Of a stretch of 64,000 nt of DNA, positions 26,328-56,956 are shown piece after piece; within the stretch, counting starts at the first letter, position 1; every line of letters begins with the position of its first letter. Location: contig NZ_QEWP01000001.1 in NCBI RefSeq assembly GCF_003121985.1, positions 372,001 through 436,000 of the forward strand. Reading direction: 5' to 3'. Made by a program: the position numbers and the translations under genes. Under the pieces are notes generated by a model. That model ran no database searches. It saw only the letters and a list, made by a program, of their open reading frames with translations, and was not told the DNA's origin. The DNA is from Marinilabilia rubra. GTDB lineage: Bacteria > Bacteroidota > Bacteroidia > Bacteroidales > Marinilabiliaceae.

Positions 26328-27470
26328 CTATAAAGTACCTTTTGTGCTTGGGAGCTGATCGTTTAAATAGTCTTTCCTGATGGCTGCTTTTATCGATCTT
26401 GCAAGGGCTTTAAAAATACCTTCAATTTTGTGATGTTCATTTTTGCCTTTTGCCTTAATGTAGAGATTGGCAGCGGCCGCATCAGAAAAGCTTTTGAAGA
26501 AGTGGAGAAACATTTCAGTGGGAAGATCTCCTACTTTTTCGCGTTTAAATTTGGTTTTCCATACCAACCATGGCCGTCCTCCAAAGTCCAGGGCCACATG
26601 GGCCATGCAATCGTCCATCGGCAAGGAGAATCCATAGCGTTCGATACCTCTCTTGTCTCCCAGTGCTTTTTTGAAAGCTTCTCCCAGTGCAAGGGCTGTG
26701 TCCTCAATTGTGTGGTGCTCATCTACCTGAAGGTCACCTCTTACCTTAATGTTTAGGTCGCAGCCGGAATGACGCCCGATTTGCTCCAGCATGTGATCAA
26801 AAAAGCCCAGTCCTGTATCAATTTTGCAGGCTCCGGTGCCATCAAGTTTTAGTTCAACTTTGATTTTTGTTTCAGAAGTATTACGCTCAACGGTAGCTGT
26901 TCGTTCCTGCTGGAATAAAAAGCCGGCAATTTCTTCCCAGTCTTCGGTGCAGAGGGGGCAGATATCTGTTAGATTCTTCTCTTTCAATAAAGGAAGGCCA
27001 TCATCAATTGATTTTACCAGAATACCACGGCAGCCAAGATTTTTAGCAAGCTCAATATCGGTAATCCTGTCCCCTATGACGAATGAGCCGGCCAAGTCGT
27101 ATTGATCCGAAAAATAATCTTCCAAAAGCCCTGTTCGTGGTTTTCGTGTGGGGGCATCGTCTTCGGGAAAAGAGCGGTCGATGTGTATGTTATCGAATTC
27201 AATGCCTTCTCCTTTCAAAGTATTCAGCATCTTATTCTGGGCGGGCCGGAAAGTGTCTTCCGGAAAAGATGAGGTGCCCAATCCGTCCTGGTTGGTCACC
27301 ATCGCCAATTCAAAATCGAGGTGTTTGGCTATCCTGTTGAGGTTAGTGATGGCACCGGGTATAAAATCCAGTTTTTCGAGACTATCAATTTGATAATCGG
27401 TTGGGGGTTCTTTAATGATGGTGCCGTCACGGTCAATAAACAGTACTCTTTTTGGGGTATTTTTATCCAT
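26328..27470 (-). CDS. hisB: Bifunctional histidinol-phosphatase / imidazoleglycerol-phosphate dehydratase
   Basis: This fused enzyme performs the sixth and eighth steps of histidine synthesis. The N-terminal HAD phosphatase (about 1-170) has the nucleophile motif [11 protein letters not shown] and a zinc-binding loop ending CPLC. The C-terminal dehydratase (about 190-380) has [34 protein letters not shown] and [14 protein letters not shown], whose histidines bind manganese. The fusion is the enterobacterial type, also common in Bacteroidota. It is the last gene of the hisGDC-B cluster, which ends in the terminator at 26272-26303. Confidence 0.95.
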
Positions 27471-27540: not shown

Positions 27541-28449
27541 TTATTCGATGTCTTCTTTTAGCCAATGTTCCAGATATTCAGTCCATATAAAGGCAGGACT
27601 CTCTTTGCGAAAGCCGAATCCATGTCCGCCCTTTTCAAGTAAAACTTCTTTGACTGCAACATTGTTGCTGCGGAGCGCCTTTGCATATCGGATGGTATTT
27701 TCTACAGATACTCCTTCGTCATCTTTGGCGTGAATAATGATGGTGGGTGGCGTATTCGCTGTAATTTGTTTTTCCAAAGAAAAAAGCTGCACGAGTTTAT
27801 CGGAAGCATTTTTCCCAAGCAAAGCTTCTCTTGAACCTTGATGAGTTATAGTGTCGGCCATTGATATTACTGGGTAAACCAGTATCGAGAAATCAGGTCT
27901 AACCTTGTTGCCTTCCCTGCTCAGGGGGACTCTTTGATTAAACAAATTGGATGCCGATGCAGCCAGGTGTCCACCAGCCGAAAAACCCAGGATCCCGATT
28001 TTATCGGGATTTATACTCCATTCTGAAGCCTTTTCCCGAACCAATGCGATCGCTCTTCTTGCATCGGCAAGGGGAACAAATGTGGCGTCAGAAAACAGAG
28101 AGTCTTCGGGCAGTCGATACTTTAATACAAATGCCTCATAGCCTAACTGAGAAAGCCACTCTGCAACCTGACTTCCTTCATGCTCGTAAGCTTCAACCCT
28201 ATACCCGCCTCCCGGGCAAATTATAATGGCCGGTTTAATACCTTTACCTTGGGCCGAATAATGCCACAATTCTGGTTCAGTTACATTGTAAAGGATGGGT
28301 GTCCCGTAATCGGAGATGGTTTTTCTTTCCTGAGGTGGATTCCCTTTTGATCCTGGGGATGATCCTTCGTATAAACTCAGTATTTTGTCCTGCCCTTCGA
28401 TGTTTACAGTAGCTGCCATAGCAAAAAGAAAGAGGAAAATTGAACGCAT
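27541..28449 (-). CDS. Secreted alpha/beta-hydrolase (acetyl-xylan-esterase-like)
   Basis: The 302 residues begin with a signal peptide (about 1-19, ending NIEGQ). An alpha/beta-hydrolase fold follows: oxyanion motif CPGGGYRVEAYEHEG, nucleophile Ser in GFSAGGHLA, Asp in HAKDDEGVS and His in KGGHGFGF. It resembles BD-FAE/Axe-type esterases that deacetylate plant or algal polysaccharides. It sits between hisC and hisB on the same strand although it has nothing to do with histidine; a 150-bp dispersed repeat separates it from hisC. It looks like an insertion into the operon. Confidence 0.85.
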   Translation of the reverse strand: MRSIFLFLFAMAATVNIEGQDKILSLYEGSSPGSKGNPPQERKTISDYGTPILYNVTEPELWHYSAQGKGIKPAIIICPGGGYRVEAYEHEGSQVAEWLSQLGYEAFVLKYRLPEDSLFSDATFVPLADARRAIALVREKASEWSINPDKIGILGFSAGGHLAASASNLFNQRVPLSREGNKVRPDFSILVYPVISMADTITHQGSREALLGKNASDKLVQLFSLEKQITANTPPTIIIHAKDDEGVSVENTIRYAKALRSNNVAVKEVLLEKGGHGFGFRKESPAFIWTEYLEHWLKEDIE

Positions 28450-28637: not shown

Positions 28638-29690
28638 TTAAGCTTTATTTATCCTATTTTGATAACCCTCAAGAGCAGCCAATAGTTTTTTGTTTTCTTC
28701 CTGAGTACCCACTGTAATTCTCAGACATCCTTCGCAGAGAGCTACATTGGAACGGTCGCGGATAATGATTTTGTTTCCCACCAGATAATTGTAAATATCC
28801 CTGGGAGCGTCTGCTTTTAACAAAATAAAATTGGCATCAGTAGGATAGATCTTATTGACAAATTTACATTGATTAAGAGCTTTCGTTAGCCTGGCCCTCT
28901 CAGTCAGTAAGTTCTCCACCCATTGTTCCATATCTTGGCTTTCATTCAGAAGATTCAGTGCCTTCTTTTGAGTAAGGATATTGACATTGTAAGGGTATTT
29001 TATCTTGCTAAACACGTTTATTATTTGAGTACTGGCGAATCCCATGCCCAGTCTGATACCTGCCATTCCCCATGCTTTGGAGAATGTTTGAAGAATTATG
29101 AGGTTGGGGTAATCCTCAAGTTTTGGAAGCCAGCTTTTTTCAGGGGCGAAATCGATGTATGCTTCATCCAGTACCACAATTCCCTGAAAGCCTTCCAAAA
29201 CCTTCCTGATTCCCTCTTCTTTGAAACAGTTTCCGGTAGGGTTGTTGGGAGAACAAAGGAAAATGATTTTTGTATGCTCGTCTGCTTCCCTGAGCAATGC
29301 ATCAGGATCCAGTTCAAAGTCGGGCTTTAGCAGGACCTTCCGAACTTCAATATTGTTGATGTCGGCTGCTACCTGGTACATGCCATAGGTGGGTGAAATT
29401 GAAACAATGTTGTCGACTCCGGGCTCACAGAAAGCACGGATAGCAACGTCGATGGCTTCATCACTACCATTGCCAAGAAAAGTGTTTTCAGGTTTGGTCT
29501 TTTTAAGTGAGGCAATTCGTTTCTTTAATTCCCTCTGGTATGGGTCGGGGTATCTATTATAGGGAGCATTAAATGGATTTTCATTGGCATCCAGAAAAAC
29601 AGCGGCCTCACCACTGTATTCGTCACGTGCTGAAGAGTAAGGTTTAAGGTCTCTGATATTGGGACGTAAGAGTTTTTCCAAGGGCTTCAT
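28638..29690 (-). CDS. hisC: Histidinol-phosphate aminotransferase
   Basis: This PLP enzyme transfers an amino group from glutamate to imidazole-acetol phosphate, the seventh step. The class I/II aminotransferase motifs are seen: GNGSDEAID, the PNNPTGN loop, [10 protein letters not shown] and the PLP-binding Lys in [16 protein letters not shown]-terminal arginine in LRITVG binds phosphate. The start is placed at ATG 29688-29690 ([11 protein letters not shown]); the 12 upstream residues of the longer frame have no support. It lies 61 bases after hisD. The repeat copy A follows its stop directly. Confidence 0.94.
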
Positions 29691-29751
29691 GAACTTTATT
29701 TTAAAGTATTTTGAAGAACCCGGCAACCAGGCTCTTCAATCACATGGATAT

Positions 29752-31032
29752 TTAACTGTTTTTAGTTCTCAAGGAAACTGCCATTTTGTGGGCCTCCAGT
29801 TGCTCGGCTGCCGCCATTGTTTCAATGGTCGGGCCAAGTTTCTGCAACCCTTTTGGGGTGATCTCCTGGAAAGTAATCTTTTTGCAGAAACTATCCAGAT
29901 TGACACCACTGTAAGCTTTGGCATATCCGTAAGTCGGAAGTGTATGATTGGTGCCGGAGGCATAATCACCTGCACTTTCGGGTGTATAGTTTCCAAGAAA
30001 AACAGATCCTGCATTTACAATTTTTTCACTAACCCAATTATAGTCCCTTACAGAAAGAATCAAGTGCTCCGGAGCATATTGATTGGTGAAGTCTATCATC
30101 TCGGAGATGTCTTTCAGGAGAATCATCCGGCTGTTTTTGAGTGCTTTTTTAGCAGTTTCTGTACGGGGAAGTGTTTTCAACTGCTTTTCAATTTCCTTCT
30201 CCACCTGCTTAATCATGTTTTCTGAGTCAGTAACCAATATAGATTGGCTGTCAGGGCCATGTTCAGCTTGAGAAAGAAGGTCGGAAGCTACAAATTCAGG
30301 GTTGGCACTCTCATCGGCCATAACCTCCACTTCAGATGGACCTGCCGGAAGATCAATAGCAACGCCGTCAAGCGTAATGAGCTGTTTGGCTGCTGTGACA
30401 AAACTGTTTCCCGGTCCGAAGATTTTGTCCACAGCAGGAATGGTTTCTGTGCCATAAGCCATGGCAGCAATAGCCTGCGCTCCTCCTGCCTTATAGATTT
30501 TTGTGACCCCGGCAATGTGTGCAGCAAACAAAATGGCCGGGTGAATTTTGCCATCTTTTCCGGGAGGGGAGCAAAGCACAATTTCTTTACAACCGGCAAT
30601 GTCTGCTGGTATTGCCAGCATCAGGACTGTCGAAAACAGAGGTGCCGATCCTCCGGGAATATAGAGACCAACTTTTTCAATGGGGGTGCTTCTTTGCCAG
30701 CAAACTACACCCGGCGCTGTTTCAACCTTCTTAACTTTTTGGATCTGTGCTTCGTGAAACTTCCGAATGTTGATAATGGCATTATTTATGGCTCCTTTTA
30801 AATTGCTGTCAACACGCAGGCACTCTTCGCGGATTTCATCTTCCGAAATTGCAAAGGAATCAATGGATACCCCGTCAAAGCGTTCGGTAAACTCTTTCAA
30901 TGCCTTGTCTTTGTCTCTTTTTACAGCGTCCAGAACAGGTCGTACTTTTTCAATAACGTCCTGTTGGTTGCTGATGGCTCTTGTTGTGAGATGGCTCCAC
31001 TCACCCGGTGCTGGAAATTTGAATGTTTCCAT
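29752..31032 (-). CDS. hisD: Histidinol dehydrogenase
   Basis: It oxidises L-histidinol to histidine in two NAD-dependent steps, the end of the pathway. The 426 residues carry the zinc and substrate signatures: [23 protein letters not shown] split across two motifs, [21 protein letters not shown], the catalytic-region [10 protein letters not shown] and the conserved EHL of [10 protein letters not shown]-terminal His sits in SGTNHTLPT. The length is normal. It starts 17 bases after hisG stops, and no terminator lies between, so hisG and hisD share one attenuated transcript. Confidence 0.96.
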
Positions 31033-31049
31033 GATAAACTGTTAAATAA

Positions 31050-31910
31050 TTACAGAATCATTTTTTCGATAGGAACGATGAGGATACCCTCTGCGCCATT
31101 TTCTTTCAACTGGCCGATAACATCCCAAAACTGATCTTCTTTGATCACAGAGTGAACACTGCTCCATCCTTCTTGTGCCAAAGGTAAAACAGTGGGGCTT
31201 TTCATTCCGGGCAAAATCTCTATTATTTTATCCAGATTATTGTTTGGGGCGTTAAGAAGAATGTACTTGTTCGAGTTGGAAGCCATCACAGCATTCATCC
31301 TGAAGATCATTTGCCCCAGAATGGCTTCTTTCTCAGGAGATAATTTTCCGCTGGAAACCAATACTGCTTCAGAATCCATTACTTTTTCAACCTCTTTAAG
31401 GTGATTGGCTACAAGTGTACTGCCCGAACTAACAATGTCAAAGATGGCATCTGCCAGACCTATTCCCGGCGCAATCTCAACCGATCCTGCAATTTCATGT
31501 ATCTCAGCATTGATTTTCTTTTCATCAAAGAACTTTTTAAGGATTTCGGGATAAGAGGTGGCGATTTTTTTGTTCTCAAACCATTCAAAACCTGTGTAAT
31601 CGATCTCCTTGGGAATGGCCAAAGAAAGTCGGCACTTGCTGAATCCCAGTTCTTTCTCGGTTTTCAGGGAGAACCCTTTTTCTTCCAGTTCGTTTTGCCC
31701 CACAATACCGATGTCTGCCACACTGTCGGCTACTGTTTGCGGAATGTCGTCGTCACGCAAGAACAATACTTCCAAAGGAAATTTGGTGGCAGTGGCAACC
31801 AGGCGTCCGTTTCCTAAGTTAAACTTAATACCTGCTTCTTTGAGCAAGTTACGGCTGTCTTCAAAAAGTCTCCCTTTTTTTTGTAGTGCAATTCTGAGTT
31901 TTGTTTCCAT
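31050..31910 (-). CDS. hisG: ATP phosphoribosyltransferase, long form
   Basis: It catalyses the first committed step: ATP plus PRPP to phosphoribosyl-ATP. The 286 residues include the catalytic periplasmic-binding-like domains with KKGRLFEDS, DIGIVGQNELEE and the PRPP-binding segment DAIFDIVSSGSTLVANHL. A C-terminal ACT-like domain of about 70 residues (NKYILLNAPNNNLDKI onward) is also present. This long form is inhibited by histidine and needs no HisZ. It is the first structural gene behind the leader-peptide attenuator, so it is controlled both at transcription and by feedback. Confidence 0.95.
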   Translation of the reverse strand: METKLRIALQKKGRLFEDSRNLLKEAGIKFNLGNGRLVATATKFPLEVLFLRDDDIPQTVADSVADIGIVGQNELEEKGFSLKTEKELGFSKCRLSLAIPKEIDYTGFEWFENKKIATSYPEILKKFFDEKKINAEIHEIAGSVEIAPGIGLADAIFDIVSSGSTLVANHLKEVEKVMDSEAVLVSSGKLSPEKEAILGQMIFRMNAVMASNSNKYILLNAPNNNLDKIIEILPGMKSPTVLPLAQEGWSSVHSVIKEDQFWDVIGQLKENGAEGILIVPIEKMIL

Positions 31911-31973
31911 TTTTTTGTCAGTTATTATGTTCTTAATTAACTTGTTTTGCCAATCTGATGTTCGTTTTTAGCA

Positions 31974-32006
31974 TAAAAAAAGGCTTACCAACGAGGTAAG
32001 CCTTTT
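31974..32006 (-). terminator. Attenuator terminator of the his operon
   Basis: On the minus strand AAAAGGCTTACC (32006-31995) pairs with GGTAAGCCTTTT (31989-31978) around a 5-base loop, followed by a run of seven T. It lies between the leader peptide and hisG, which starts 64 bases further on. The arm could instead pair with GAGGGTGGGCT (32045-32035) just after the leader stop: GAGG with CCTC and TGGGCT with AGGCTTA by Watson-Crick and G-U pairs with one bulge. That alternative would act as antiterminator. Confidence 0.85.
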
Positions 32007-32046
32007 CAGAGTAATATTCTTGCATAGTACAACCAGCCCACCCTCG

Positions 32047-32097
32047 CTATATGAGGTAGAAATGATGATGAGCATGATGATGTACTGAAAAAATCAT
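32047..32097 (-). CDS. hisL: his operon leader peptide (histidine-rich)
   Basis: The 16-codon frame reads MIFSVHHHAHHHFYLI and ends with TAG. It has six His codons out of seven positions (6-12), as expected for histidine-sensing attenuation. It begins about 26 bases after the predicted transcription start, and its stop lies one base before the proposed antiterminator segment. When charged tRNA-His is scarce a ribosome would stall on the His run, leave that segment free and prevent the terminator at 31974-32006. I see no Shine-Dalgarno, as usual for the phylum. Codon content, position, promoter and terminator agree. Confidence 0.88.
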   Translation of the reverse strand: MIFSVHHHAHHHFYLI

Positions 32098-32129
32098 AGT
32101 TTTTATCGGTTTTTTGTTTCGATTCAATG

Positions 32130-32160
32130 CAAAAGTAGATTCTTTTTGCATAAAATCAAA
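32130..32160 (-). promoter_or_regulatory. his operon promoter (perfect consensus)
   Basis: On the minus strand TTTG (32160-32157), exactly 19 bases, TACTTTTG (32137-32130) matches the Bacteroidota consensus TTTG-N19-TAnnTTTG in every defined position. Transcription should begin near 32123, 26 bases before the leader peptide. It lies 16 bases after the stop of the bacteriohemerythrin gene. Confidence 0.85.
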
Positions 32161-32175
32161 TTTTAGAGCAAAAAA

Positions 32176-32565
32176 TTATGAAGCGACATAGGCTGCATAT
32201 TGTTTGTCTTCACTCTTAATGTGATTGGTAATCCATTTTTTGATAAAATTGGTGACCTCCAGAGACAAGATTAATTTACCGGAAGTATGTTTGTCATAAA
32301 AATCTGTTGCCTTCCCGATAAATTCTTTGTGCTCTTTTTTGTGTTTTTCCAGATTGGGAAAGCCAATGGATTTCATATAGTCCTCTTCATTGCTGAAATG
32401 GAAGTTGGCATAATCCAATAGTCCTTTGATGAGGTTGCCTAACTCTTCTTTTGATGACCCGTTTTGAAGACCCTGATAAAAGTCATCCAGAAGTTTGAAC
32501 AGTTCTTTGTGTTCATCATCAATTTTCGGGTTTTCGACGGAAAACTCAGTTGTCCACTCAATCAT
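32176..32565 (-). CDS. Bacteriohemerythrin, copy 1
   Basis: This is a 129-residue non-haem di-iron oxygen-binding protein. The ligand set is visible: H19 in IDDEHKELF, HFSNEE in the second helix (His and Glu), HKKEH and a further His at the third helix, and NHIKSED with the closing His and Asp. Such proteins store or deliver oxygen, or sense it, in microaerophiles. It is paralogous to the gene just upstream (32699-33097), and the two share both ends and the spacing of all ligands. Its stop is immediately before the his promoter. Confidence 0.92.
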   Translation of the reverse strand: MIEWTTEFSVENPKIDDEHKELFKLLDDFYQGLQNGSSKEELGNLIKGLLDYANFHFSNEEDYMKSIGFPNLEKHKKEHKEFIGKATDFYDKHTSGKLILSLEVTNFIKKWITNHIKSEDKQYAAYVAS

Positions 32566-32698: not shown

Positions 32699-33097
32699 TT
32701 AATCAATTGTATTTGCAAACCTGGCATATTGCTGGTCGGTGCCTTTAATGTGGTTGATGAGCCATGTTTTCAGGAAATTGGTGACTGTAAGTGAAAGGAT
32801 CATCTTATCGTTCACAATTTTTTCATGAAATTCAGTTATTTTCGCTACATACTCGTTGTGTTTTTCTTTATGTAGCTCAAAGTCAGGGTAATTAATTGAT
32901 TTCATGTAACGCTCCTCATTGGCAAAGTGGTATTTGGTATAATCCAACATTCCAAGGACCAACTCTGTCAGTTTTTCCTTTGATTTCCCGTTCATTAAAC
33001 CCTGGTAGAAATCATTCAAAAGAGAAACCCATTTTTTATGCTCATTATCAATTTCTTCTATTCCAACGGATAGGTCGGGTGTCCATTTAATAATCAT
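32699..33097 (-). CDS. Bacteriohemerythrin, copy 2
   Basis: This is a 132-residue paralogue of the neighbouring hemerythrin. Its ligands sit in IDNEHKKWV, HFANEE, LHKEKHNEY and NHIKGTDQQYA. Roughly half of the residues agree between the two by eye, so the tandem duplication is not recent. The pair lies 133 bases apart on the same strand, with an AT-rich gap between. With cytochrome bd at the left of the window they fit a cell living at low oxygen; a role in oxygen delivery is inference. Confidence 0.92.
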   Translation of the reverse strand: MIIKWTPDLSVGIEEIDNEHKKWVSLLNDFYQGLMNGKSKEKLTELVLGMLDYTKYHFANEERYMKSINYPDFELHKEKHNEYVAKITEFHEKIVNDKMILSLTVTNFLKTWLINHIKGTDQQYARFANTID

Positions 33098-53736: not shown

Positions 53737-54333
53737 TTATTTATGTCTTCCCTGAAGCACTTTGATGACGTCTTCAATTCGATGTCCCTTAGCTGTTAAA
53801 AGTACCAAAGTGTGGTAGGTTAAATCAGCCACTTCATTGAGGAATAGTTCTTCGTTGCTGTCTTTAGCTTCAATGACTGTTTCTACAGCCTCTTCTCCTA
53901 CTTTTTGGGCTATTTTGTTGATGCCTTTGTTAAACAAAGAAGTGGTGTAGCTTCCCTCCGGCATGTCTTGCAGACGTTTGTCAATCAGATCCTGAAGGTG
54001 GATAAGGAATTCGGCATTACCAAGGTTGGATTCGTTGAAGCAGGTGTCGCTTCCGGTATGACAAACAGGCCCAACCGGGTTGGCTTTAATCAAGATGGTA
54101 TCGCTGTCGCAATCAGGGGTAATGGAGACCACATTAAGGAAGTTTCCTGATTCTTCGCCTTTTGTCCATAAGCGATCCTTTGAACGGCTATAGAAAGTAA
54201 CTTTTCCCTCTTTCTGGGTTTTTTCAAATGCTTCTTCATTCATAAATCCCAGCATTAGTACAACGCTGGTTTGCGAGTCCTGCACAATGGCAGGGATTAA
54301 TCCGTTTCCTAACTTAGAGAAATCTAATTGCAT
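53737..54333 (-). CDS. hisIE: Bifunctional phosphoribosyl-AMP cyclohydrolase / phosphoribosyl-ATP pyrophosphatase
   Basis: This fused enzyme does steps two and three of histidine synthesis. The N-terminal HisI domain (about 1-105) has VLMLGFMNEEAF, FYSRSKDRLWTKGEESGN and the zinc cysteines in PDCDSD, VCHTG and DTCF. The C-terminal HisE domain (about 110-198) has LQDLIDKRLQDMPEGSYTTSLF and KVGEEAVETVIEAKD, the magnesium-binding glutamates. It is the last gene of the second his cluster. A promoter-like element (54369-54376) just upstream may give it extra expression. Confidence 0.95.
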   Translation of the reverse strand: MQLDFSKLGNGLIPAIVQDSQTSVVLMLGFMNEEAFEKTQKEGKVTFYSRSKDRLWTKGEESGNFLNVVSITPDCDSDTILIKANPVGPVCHTGSDTCFNESNLGNAEFLIHLQDLIDKRLQDMPEGSYTTSLFNKGINKIAQKVGEEAVETVIEAKDSNEELFLNEVADLTYHTLVLLTAKGHRIEDVIKVLQGRHK

Positions 54334-54368
54334 GGTATTGTCTGTCTTTTATTTTAATTACTTGATTG

Positions 54369-54376
54369 CAAAGATA
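54369..54376 (-). promoter_or_regulatory. Possible internal promoter before hisIE
   Basis: On the minus strand TATCTTTG matches TAnnTTTG and lies 36 bases before hisIE. There is no matching -33 box at 19-20 bases. Confidence 0.35.
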
Positions 54377-54404
54377 ATAATTTGTCTGTCTTTGCGTGTT
54401 TTGG

Positions 54405-55160
54405 TTATCTTATAGTGATTCCTTCCTTTATCAGGTAGTCTTTTAATTCCGGAACAGGGATTTCATTAAAGTGAAAGATGCTTGCAGCCAAACCGGCATC
54501 AGCTTTCCCAATAGTGAATACATCCTTGAAGTGCTCTTTGGCTCCTGCTCCTCCCGAAGCAATAATAGGAATGCCTCTTTCGTCGGAAAGTTTGGCAAGG
54601 GCTTCATTTGCAAACCCCTGTTTTACGCCATCGTGGTCCATGCTGGTAAATAAAATTTCACCCGCACCACGCTCTTCAGCTTCTTTTGCCCAGGAGAAAA
54701 GTCGCTTGTCGGTTGGGATGCGCCCGCCATTAACGGTTACCGTCCATTCATCTCCCTGCAGTTGTTTTGCATCTATGGCTGCCACAACAAATTGACTGCC
54801 GAAATGCCGGGCCATGTCGCTAATTAGTTGCGGATTCTTTACAGCTGACGAGTTGATAGAGATTTTGTCAGCACCGGCATTCAGCAAAGCATCGGCATCG
54901 CTCAACTCACTAATGCCGCCACCTACGGTAAAGGGGATGTTGATATGTTGGGCAATCCGCTTAACCAGGTCAACAAATGTTTTTCTTTTCTCGTGACTTG
55001 CAGTGATGTCCAGAAACACCAGTTCATCGGCCCCTTGTTCCGCATATAGTGCGCCCAGTTCTACCGGATCACCGACTTCTTTGATGTCCAGAAATTTCAC
55101 TCCCTTTACGGTTTGGCCGTTACGGATGTCAAGACAAGGTATGATTCTTTTTGCGAGCAT
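54405..55160 (-). CDS. hisF: Imidazole glycerol phosphate synthase, cyclase subunit
   Basis: HisF uses ammonia from HisH to close the imidazole ring and release AICAR. The 251 residues form a TIM barrel beginning [20 protein letters not shown] (catalytic Asp11), with VAAIDAKQ (second catalytic Asp), FTVGGGISE and [12 protein letters not shown] phosphate loops. The expected partner hisH is in the same cluster, separated by hisA and a four-helix-bundle gene. The 457-base gap to hisA is filled by that inserted gene. Confidence 0.96.
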
Positions 55161-55180
55161 TTTTTTAGTTTTTTAGTTCG

Positions 55181-55604
55181 TAAGGCAGAAGGCAGAAGTT
55201 GTGTTAGTTTTTTCGCAATTTCCAGATTAATGACGAAAGCATCTTCTCTATTTCATGGCTTAGGGTGTCAATTTTCTCAAACTCCTCATTGGTACAATAG
55301 TGAAGACGATTTGCAATCTCCAGTTGCGTTTGAAACTCATATAAAGAGCCACTTGCAATCTGTAGAAATCTTATATAATCATTTTTGCTGTTCCTGCCAT
55401 AACCTTCTGCTATATTGCTGGGAATCGATATTGATGATCTTTTTATCTGACTAGTTAATGAATAAATTTCTTCAGAGGGAAATTTTTTAGACAACTTATA
55501 GGTGAGGCAGACAAGGTCAATGGCTTTTTGCCAAACAATTAAATCACGATATGATTTCATAATTTATATGGATTAGTTGGTAAAATCTTCTGCCTTCTGC
55601 CTTA
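55181..55604. mobile_element. Inverted-repeat-bounded cassette carrying the S23 gene
   Basis: TAAGGCAGAAGGCAGAAG (55181-55198) and its exact inverse (55587-55604) bound the four-helix-bundle gene, with a further GGCAGAAG copy at 55609-55616. The 18-bp perfect arms stand within an operon where no spacer is needed, so the unit looks like an inserted cassette. No transposase is present and no flanking target duplication was seen. Confidence 0.55.
55204..55560 (-). CDS. Four-helix-bundle protein (S23/IVS family)
   Basis: The 118-residue protein matches the family first seen as an open frame in 23S rRNA intervening sequences and also as Avd of diversity-generating retroelements: DLIVWQKAIDLVCLTYKL, FPSEEIYSLTSQIKRSS, SIPSNIAEGYGR and FLQIASGSLYEFQTQL. 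It probably forms pentameric basic barrels that bind nucleic acid; its cell role as a free-standing gene is unknown. It sits between hisA and hisF, bounded by inverted repeats. Confidence 0.9.
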   Translation of the reverse strand: MKSYRDLIVWQKAIDLVCLTYKLSKKFPSEEIYSLTSQIKRSSISIPSNIAEGYGRNSKNDYIRFLQIASGSLYEFQTQLEIANRLHYCTNEEFEKIDTLSHEIEKMLSSLIWKLRKN

Positions 55605-55617
55605 TAACTTCTGCCTG

Positions 55618-56349
55618 TTATCTCCCCCTTCCCTCAAGCTCCTTAAGTCCAATCCGTCCTTCATAAATGGCTTTGCCAAAAATGACGGCCGGAACACCTG
55701 CTTCTTCCAGTTTATCAATGTCGTTCATACTGCTGACCCCACCACTGGCAATTAGCCATAAATCCGGGAATTTCCCAAGAATTTCTTTGTAAAGGTCGGT
55801 TGACGGGCCCTCTAACATTCCATCTTTGCTGATGTCGGTGCAAATGGTTTTGGTGATGCCTTTATTTATGTAATCCTCTAAGAAATCAAACAGGTCCAGG
55901 GTAGAGGTTTCTGTCCAGCCAGAGACCGCAATTTTTCTATCCTTCGCATCTGACCCCAGAATGATTTTCTCAGATCCGTATTTCTCAATCCAGCCGGTGA
56001 ATTCATCAGGGTTTTTAACAGCTATGCTGCCTCCGGTTACCATCTGAGCACCACATTCGAAAGCTATCCTTAAATCCTCTGTGGTTTTAAGTCCACCACC
56101 AAAGTCCACCACCAGGTTGGTATTACCGGCAATTTTTTCAAGAATGTTATAGTTGATGATTTGTCCGGCTTTAGCGCCATCCAGGTCAACCAGATGAAGG
56201 CGGCTGATGCCGCTATCCTGAAACTGGCGGGCTACTTCAAGCGGATCTTCATTGTAAACTTTCTTCGTATTATAATCTCCCTTGCTTAACCGCACACATT
56301 TTCCATCAATGATGTCGATCGCCGGGATAAGTTCTATTCTTTTTTTCAT
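55618..56349 (-). CDS. hisA: Phosphoribosylformimino-5-aminoimidazole carboxamide ribotide isomerase
   Basis: HisA catalyses the Amadori isomerisation in step four. The TIM barrel begins [21 protein letters not shown] with the catalytic Asp in PAIDI, and has [14 protein letters not shown], the second Asp in [12 protein letters not shown] and [11 protein letters not shown]. The start is the ATG at 56347-56349; the longer frame to 56427 would overlap hisH and its first 26 residues have no homology. It lies 4 bases after the hisH stop, so both are coupled. Confidence 0.95.
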
Positions 56350-56353
56350 TGTC

Positions 56354-56956
56354 TTAAAGCTCCAGAAAGTTTTTAAGAATTCTTGCCCCTGCGTCGCTGC
56401 TCTTTTCGGGGTGAAACTGAGTAGCAAAAAAGTTGTCTTTTTGAAGTGCAGCGCTAAAAGGATGTATGTAATTGCTTTGGGCTGCGGTATCGGGGCCCAC
56501 TGCTACGTAATAACTATGTACAAAGTAGACGAATTCATTTTCCAGCGAAGCATCAAAGAGTGGCGTTTTTAATTTTGTAAGATTGTTCCATCCCATATGG
56601 GGAATCTTCACCTTTTCGGGATTTGAGGTATCCGGAATAAATTTCTTTACGGGTTCGTCGAAGATTCCCAAACAGGGGGTGTTGCCTTCTTCTGAATGAC
56701 TGCACATCAATTGCATACCCAGGCAAATTCCAAGTACCGGTTGCTTTAAAGAAGGTATCAGTTTATCCAATCCTTCCTGCTTCAGAAATGCCATTGTGGT
56801 ACTGGCTTCCCCAACTCCCGGGAAGATTACCTTGTCGGCATTTCGGATCGCCTCATGGTCGCTGGTAATCAGGTGGTCTTTGTAACCCAAACGGTCAAGT
56901 GCAAAACTTACCGACTGGATATTACCGGCGTTGTATTTTATTATGACAATGTTCAT
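56354..56956 (-). CDS. hisH: Imidazole glycerol phosphate synthase, glutaminase subunit
   Basis: HisH produces the ammonia used by HisF. The 200-residue class I amidotransferase has the nucleophile Cys in [11 protein letters not shown], the oxyanion GVGEAS, and the His and Glu of the triad in TQFHPEKSS. It lies 13 bases after the TlpA-like gene on the same strand and is therefore probably read from the same transcript as the trp/purU block upstream. No separate leader peptide is seen before it. Confidence 0.95.

Follow-up and report, generated by a model that had tools for sequence, protein, structure and literature searches.

Leader-peptide attenuation of the his and trp operons is textbook knowledge. 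In enteric bacteria the his leader is located upstream of hisG and encodes a short peptide with a run of His codons, followed by mutually exclusive pre-emptor, antiterminator and terminator structures drawn from a set of stems designated A to F. The main class of Bacteroidota does not use Shine-Dalgarno (SD) pairing. According to a passage of PMC8305728, an article on the his genes of the superphylum from which the word 'leader' is absent, regulation of the histidine operon has received little study beyond enteric bacteria. The mechanism as such is known, and in the open-access literature searched one study bears directly on Bacteroidota, a transcriptome study of Flavobacterium psychrophilum (PMC9723704). 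The relevant passages of that study reported 'strong clues' that amino-acid operons are attenuated through leader peptides, together with 5' elements of hisG and pheA that occur in other Flavobacteriaceae and have no Rfam matches. Attenuation at hisG of Bacteroidota was already hinted at there. The same passages concern the phylum and the genes studied here. They are confined to Flavobacteriaceae, and for hisG they describe neither a peptide nor alternative stems nor a mechanism. Small ORFs in 5' UTRs of Bacteroides thetaiotaomicron were described as 'reminiscent of leader peptides' in a passage of PMC7366714, an article from which the word histidine is absent. Amino-acid attenuators, including that of hisG in gamma-proteobacteria, were surveyed on a large scale by Lopatovskaya, Seliverstov and Lyubetsky (2010), as cited in a passage of PMC4833913, and the survey may already list Bacteroidetes cases.

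The window, i.e. the whole stretch of 64,000 nt analysed here, carries a his operon on its minus strand. The first structural gene is hisG for a long-form ATP phosphoribosyltransferase (31050..31910; Pfam HisG and HisG_C), followed by hisD for histidinol dehydrogenase (29752..31032; Pfam), a class I/II aminotransferase gene in the position of hisC (28638..29726; Pfam Aminotran_1_2; named from its context), an alpha/beta hydrolase gene (27541-28449; Pfam BD-FAE / Abhydrolase_3) and hisB for a bifunctional protein with a HAD-type phosphatase and an IGP dehydratase (26328..27470; Pfam). Two hemerythrin-like ORFs lie upstream of the his promoter on the same strand, one directly adjacent (32176-32565; Pfam Hemerythrin) and one farther away (32699-33097; resemblance by eye). 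A second cluster, hisH-hisA-hisF-hisIE, is located at 53737-56956 of the minus strand according to Pfam and, for hisA, to a family search, and no ORF with 4 His in 8 codons was found near it.

Between 32160 and 31910 of the minus strand we read, in order, a promoter, a 32 nt A-rich leader and a short ORF. The promoter is of the Bacteroidota type, TTTG-N19-TACTTTTG (32130..32160), from which transcription probably starts a few bases 3', at about 32123 and about 26 nt before the leader ATG. The ORF, MIFSVHHHAHHHFYLI (32047..32097), has an A-rich start context and 16 codons, from the ATG at 32097 to the stop TAG at 32049-32047, and is kept in relatives. Its six His codons form two triplets with an Ala codon between them. 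The space between the promoter and the first gene thus holds a short reading frame with a cluster of codons for the amino acid that the operon makes. A G-rich block begins at the leader stop codon, and about 32 nt further on is the sequence GGCTTACC-TCGTT-GGTAAGCC (32002-31982), followed by seven T (31981-31975); A's flanking this hairpin extend its stem. The ATG of hisG is at 31910, 64 nt beyond the T run. A preliminary description of this DNA had named the promoter, the six-His leader, a block one base after its stop (GAGGGTGGGCT, 32045-32035) able to pair with the 5' arm of the terminator, and the seven-T terminator before hisG. Direct reading found all four in place (32160-32130, 32097-32047, 32045-32035 and 32002-31975) and the coordinates correct within 1-2 bases.

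The arrangement of the His codons is rare. A single match to (CAY)3-NNN-(CAY)3 was found in the 64 kb, and none of 100 shuffles had one. The promoter pattern was found 3 times in the window with 3.1 expected, and because this count is at chance level the promoter draws its support from place and conservation. Across relatives, 93 of 122 first units had a TAnnTTTG no more than 90 nt before the leader ATG, as against 7.9% of shuffles.

Four segments of the leader RNA can form three stems. Segment 1, GTACATCATCATGCTCATCA (32066..32085), is part of the His-codon run. Segment 2, AGCGAGGGTGGGCTGGTTGTAC (32027..32048), overlaps the leader stop, and its 5' part is the antiterminator arm according to folds, duplex test and spacing. 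Minimum free energy folds and a duplex test paired segments 1 and 2 as a pre-emptor (1:2). Segment 3, GGCTTACCTCGTT (31990..32002; folds and alignment), is common to the antiterminator (2:3) and the terminator (3:4), and segment 4, GGTAAGCC with the seven-T run (31975..31989; folds and family alignment), completes the latter. An intrinsic terminator of about -18 kcal/mol thus lies between the leader ORF and the first gene. The 157-nt leader folded with a z-score of -3.9 (1 of 200 shuffles as good), and folds containing the terminator gave z-scores of -4.1 to -5.3. Duplex energies were -20.5 kcal/mol for 1:2, which 2% of shuffles equalled, and -17.1 kcal/mol for 2:3, which 0 of 100 shuffles equalled. 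Judged on this one sequence, z-scores of -0.4 to -1.9 for the antiterminator fold and of -1.5 for the pre-emptor fold are ordinary for RNA of such composition; the case for these two predicted stems is comparative and does not come from single-window folds. A simple terminator scan of the window did not flag the attenuator terminator, probably because the A-T pairs of the stem consume most of the T run.

The preliminary description had taken a pairing of CCTC near the end of the leader with GAGG as the pre-emptor. That pairing does occur in the fold (4 bp, 7-nt loop), as the inner and minor part of a longer stem joining GTACATCATCATGCTCA to TGGGCTGGTTGTAC, and it is the main stem that sequesters the His codons. 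The pre-emptor thus lies over the regulatory codons, where a translating ribosome would be expected to break it.

To compare relatives, hisG loci were collected from three sources. A HisG search of relatives gave matches in 83 of 100 genomes, all of which were used. A search across the phylum gave matches in 128 of 148 genomes; 90 of these were used, made up of the own genome, 29 new loci and 60 fetched places, and the other 38 were left aside. A named collection supplied 80 loci kept from at least 585 encoding stretches. The resulting 232 loci, less 7 duplicates in the last 200 nt and 2 upstreams shorter than 150 nt, left 223 upstreams for scanning; for L232, one of them, the anchoring match is weak (E 0.58). 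Twenty loci with distant HisG (L233-L252) had no tblastn match and were outside the scan. Among the matches listed, the nearest named genome was Anaerophaga thermohalophila (Marinilabiliaceae), with HisG 87% identical.

Taking 4 or more His in 8 codons as the mark of a His-rich leader, we found a short ORF of this kind in 154 of the 223 distinct upstreams and in 7 of 1115 shuffles. The leader was present in 71/83 upstreams of the order, 52/68 of the rest of the phylum and 31/72 of the named set, and at least one leader-bearing upstream occurred in 22 of the 27 family labels of the order and in 12 of the 16 other family labels sampled. These counts do not represent independent events because the upstreams are related. 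A terminator alone is weak evidence, since 53 of the 69 leaderless upstreams had a terminator-like hairpin somewhere in 400 nt by the loosest criterion. A control on the residue was better: a short ORF followed by a terminator 15-110 nt downstream was found for His in 122 of 223 upstreams, and the next residue, Leu, reached 25.

The preliminary description had proposed the His codons of relatives as a check, and the 154 upstreams with a His run bear it out; against them stand 55 of the 223 in which no leader was found even at 3 His in 8 codons. The named ones among the latter include many records of Prevotella (such as L124, L133, L135, L151 and L153) and Paludibacter (such as L095, L103, L145 and L154), whose hisG upstreams had no His leader at that threshold. 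The attenuator is widespread in Bacteroidota and far from universal, and it looks lost or replaced in some gut lineages.

Both alternative stems were also sought in relatives, as the preliminary description had proposed. In MAFFT alignments (A2, the family alignment, with 43 of 53 units, one per locus, and A3) the 1:2 stem of the pre-emptor changes register between genera, and RNAalifold on A2 gave the terminator only. Pairing was therefore tested without alignment, by duplex formation against shuffles, in 134 leader-terminator pairs. The antiterminator 2:3 beat 95% of shuffles in 89/134 units and the pre-emptor 1:2 in 75/134, the window being included in both; 73/134 units had both stems at the 10% level. 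The terminator was stronger than the antiterminator in 114/134. An antiterminator excluding the terminator is accordingly found across relatives, by a test of pairing and not of aligned covariation. The 75 significant 1:2 stems comprised 62 different sequences of the longest helix, e.g. GTACA/TGTAT, TGCATAAC/GTTATGCA and TTTTATACATCA/TGATGTGTAAAA; the sequence changes and pairing is kept, as seen from whole helices and not from aligned columns. In the alignment of the window's family, at least one sequence has both sides changed with pairing kept at 5 of the 9 predicted terminator pairs. When partners were swapped, duplexes of -9 kcal/mol or better formed in 59% of cases, compared with 87% for real and 32% for shuffled partners; the swapped figure is inflated because many terminators share GGCTTACC, and the shuffles were relied on instead. 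These comparisons support the classical attenuator interpretation of the preliminary description, with its pre-emptor corrected as above.

The terminator arms differed by clade. They were GGCTTACC-like in the window's order, CCCCGGCG-like in one family label (f55) and CCCGTTTGAG in a Flavobacterium-like clade, the last being recognised from two named loci (L146 and L150); in this the Flavobacterium-like units differ from the window. The existence of alternative terminator and antiterminator folds would also be expected if the leader RNA were a riboswitch or T-box sensing histidine or uncharged tRNA-His directly, with the ORF incidental. The ORF, however, is kept as His codons while the arm sequences change from clade to clade, and Rfam gave no family match in the window at gathering scores. 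At E up to 10, the region 31900-32200 had 13 matches, with neither T-box nor His_leader among them, and Thr_leader (E 0.026) and Phe_leader (E 0.15) were far below their gathering scores. On this evidence direct sensing by the RNA is extremely improbable. Membership of the T-box family and of His_leader (RF00514) was rejected by the same searches, at gathering and at E up to 10.

The position of the antiterminator arm was related to the His codons. Toeprinting places the front edge of a ribosome about 10-11 nt past the last His codon when that codon is in the A site, and equally far past the stop when the stop codon has been reached. With this footprint, a stall in the run would expose the arm and completion of the peptide would hide it. 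In the window the distance from the last His codon to the start of the arm is 12-13 nt. Among 118 units with a strong antiterminator, 91 (77%, compared with 25% of shuffles) have an arm that starts at a distance of 9-18 nt from the last clustered His codon, and in 71% (41% in shuffles) the arm ends no more than 11 nt after the leader stop. In 110 units the arm start had a median distance of 12 nt from the last His codon with a median absolute deviation of 2 nt, and the deviation from the stop codon was 5. The standard deviations of the two distances were similar (5.6 from His and 6.1 from the stop), and the gap between His and arm still lengthens with the leader tail (r = 0.67). The distance was shorter than 9 nt in 23 of the 118 units, some of them Flavobacterium-like, and in these the ribosome would have to stall further back among the His codons.

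Leader starts lacked SD signals. An SD-like 5-mer preceded the leader ATG in 0 of 130 cases, which is consistent with SD-less starts and no proof of them, as only 1.15 were expected from shuffles. All 15 positions before the ATG had A as their most frequent base, with 62-65% at -2 to -4. This start context fits Bacteroidia ribosomes, which were reported in a passage of PMC9976891 to fail to recognise SD sequences.

Similar leaders were found before other amino-acid genes. The trpE gene of the same genome (L259, contig C1 at about 437.4 kb, about 1.4 kb past the end of the window) is preceded by a leader, MNKTVCNIWWWRHSFLPHSG, with WWW, and then by a terminator with AGGCTTGCC arms. Its pheA gene is preceded by MIQHAYSFFFFFFYFFGSTTRRGRLMHN (L262:1325-1411), with seven Phe in eight codons, and then by a CCCGCC/GGCGGG hairpin and eight T. 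Matches to pheA and trpE were obtained in 44 and 48 of 61 genomes, and 30 loci were fetched per gene; all 30 were scanned for pheA and 28 for trpE, 2 having been dropped as too short. A Trp leader ORF was found in 24 of 28 trpE upstreams and a Phe leader ORF in 25 of 30 pheA upstreams, the own genome included in both. These counts have no shuffle control; the Phe ORFs are T-rich and the Trp test, 2 Trp in 4 codons, is lenient. A run of three Trp is present in 22 of the 24 Trp ORFs; of the remaining two, at least one (L318) does not look like a leader. No such leader was seen by eye before the homoserine dehydrogenase, aspartokinase-homoserine dehydrogenase, three HMGL-like genes and hisA of the own genome.

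A His-rich ORF conserved as such could also encode a functional small protein, e.g. a metal-binding one, the terminator then ending a short transcript of its own with hisG left unregulated. Several observations make this highly improbable. The peptide outside the His run varies between genera, Trp- and Phe-rich ORFs occupy the same place before trpE and pheA in most upstreams examined, and the antiterminator arm keeps its preferred distance from the last His codon.

We conclude, with a probability of about 0.92, that the region from 32160 to 31910 would control the hisGDC-hisB operon by ribosome-mediated attenuation of transcription, as in the classical his/trp attenuators of enteric bacteria. 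The window and its relatives show the parts of the element and their conservation, pairings that exclude one another, and the spacing of the arm. Like enteric hisL (RF00514), the locus has a leader with His codons and mutually exclusive pre-emptor, antiterminator and terminator before hisG. Unlike it, the window has three stems in place of the A to F set, its six His codons are split by Ala into two triplets, initiation would proceed without an SD sequence, and the RF00514 model is unmatched at E up to 10.

The following course of events is proposed from the arrangement of these parts. RNA polymerase would start about 26 nt before the leader ATG, and a ribosome would begin on the leader without an SD sequence. 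When charged His-tRNA is available, the ribosome would reach the stop codon, and its footprint of about 10-11 nt beyond would cover the antiterminator arm of segment 2. Segments 3 and 4 would then be left to form the terminator, and transcription would end. When charged His-tRNA is scarce, the ribosome would stall in the His run and open stem 1:2, segment 2, now free, could pair with segment 3 ahead of the synthesis of segment 4, and hisG would be transcribed. If no ribosome were on the leader, 1:2 would form and then the terminator, which would make termination the default state. Stalling, coupling of the ribosome to the polymerase and the response to histidine are what we infer from this arrangement.

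Variants of the element were found among the relatives. In 14 of the 223 upstreams, hisG was preceded by two successive His leaders with a terminator after each (L010, L011, L012, L013, L015, L021, L031, L033, L035, L046, L051, L062, L086 and L108). These tandem units are found in Carboxylicivirga and its kin (named in L086, probable in the others) and in loci of at least three other family labels, L046, L051 and L062 belonging to other labels and L108 being a further case. The promoter pattern was sought in 11 of the 14 (L011, L015 and L033 were outside this set). There was a single match, before the first unit, in seven loci of the Carboxylicivirga type, and none was found in L046, L051, L062 and L108. 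With a single promoter before the first unit in those seven loci, the second terminator would be met only by polymerases that have passed the first. The series is a possible variant of the known attenuator and suggests a simple route to tighter repression.

In the mgtCBR leader of Salmonella two ORFs respond to different signals. That leader was described, in a passage of PMC3641672, as having tandem attenuators with two short ORFs. The tandem units of the relatives resemble it in having two short ORFs in one leader and differ in that both ORFs are His leaders, each with a terminator.

Two family-level groups had leaders and no terminator by the criteria used. In f62, a deep group (L216-L225), His leaders were found in 10 of 11 upstreams and a terminator, by the criteria used, in none. 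The RNA following these leaders had 8.4% G and 23.8% C, compared with 18.4% and 16.3% in 139 other leader-bearing upstreams. As judged from this composition, which would suit Rho, the intrinsic terminator may have been replaced in f62 by a Rho-dependent one. In f42 all 5 upstreams had a leader and none had a terminator passing the criteria used. Of the 10 leader-terminator upstreams of f45, only 2 had an antiterminator that beat shuffles, and in several the predicted start of the arm is just 6 nt past the last His codon.

It could be asked whether attenuation at the window itself is real and acts mainly via Rho or via translation of hisG in place of the intrinsic terminator. The f62 leaders, in which no terminator was found and whose downstream RNA is G-poor like Rho-loading regions, lend some weight to this reading. 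The strong intrinsic terminator of the window and its conservation in the window's family weigh against it and make it very improbable there. Intrinsic termination remains the preferred reading for the window.

A broader view, which we consider probable with clearly less confidence than the reading of the window, is that ribosome-coupled attenuation is general for the His, Trp and Phe operons of Bacteroidota, that polymerase and ribosome are closely coupled in the phylum, that some lineages use two His leaders in series, and that f62 may depend on Rho. Leader-peptide attenuation requires a ribosome close behind RNA polymerase from the first codons; if such attenuation is general in Bacteroidota, RNA polymerase and the leading ribosome would therefore be closely coupled there. 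Attenuators would add a layer of control to the histidine operons. Those for His, Trp and Phe in an SD-independent phylum would also offer a natural quantitative test of transcription-translation coupling, with ready-made reporters.

Some minor features were also seen. Upstream of hisG in some loci of the Carboxylicivirga type, the end of a coding region resembled hemerythrin-like ORFs by eye. The f62 leaders had GTGCA near the leader stop, often followed by GCAC, and some weaker hairpins ahead of T runs were visible in f42. One trpE upstream (L320) had two WWW ORFs, perhaps tandem Trp leaders.
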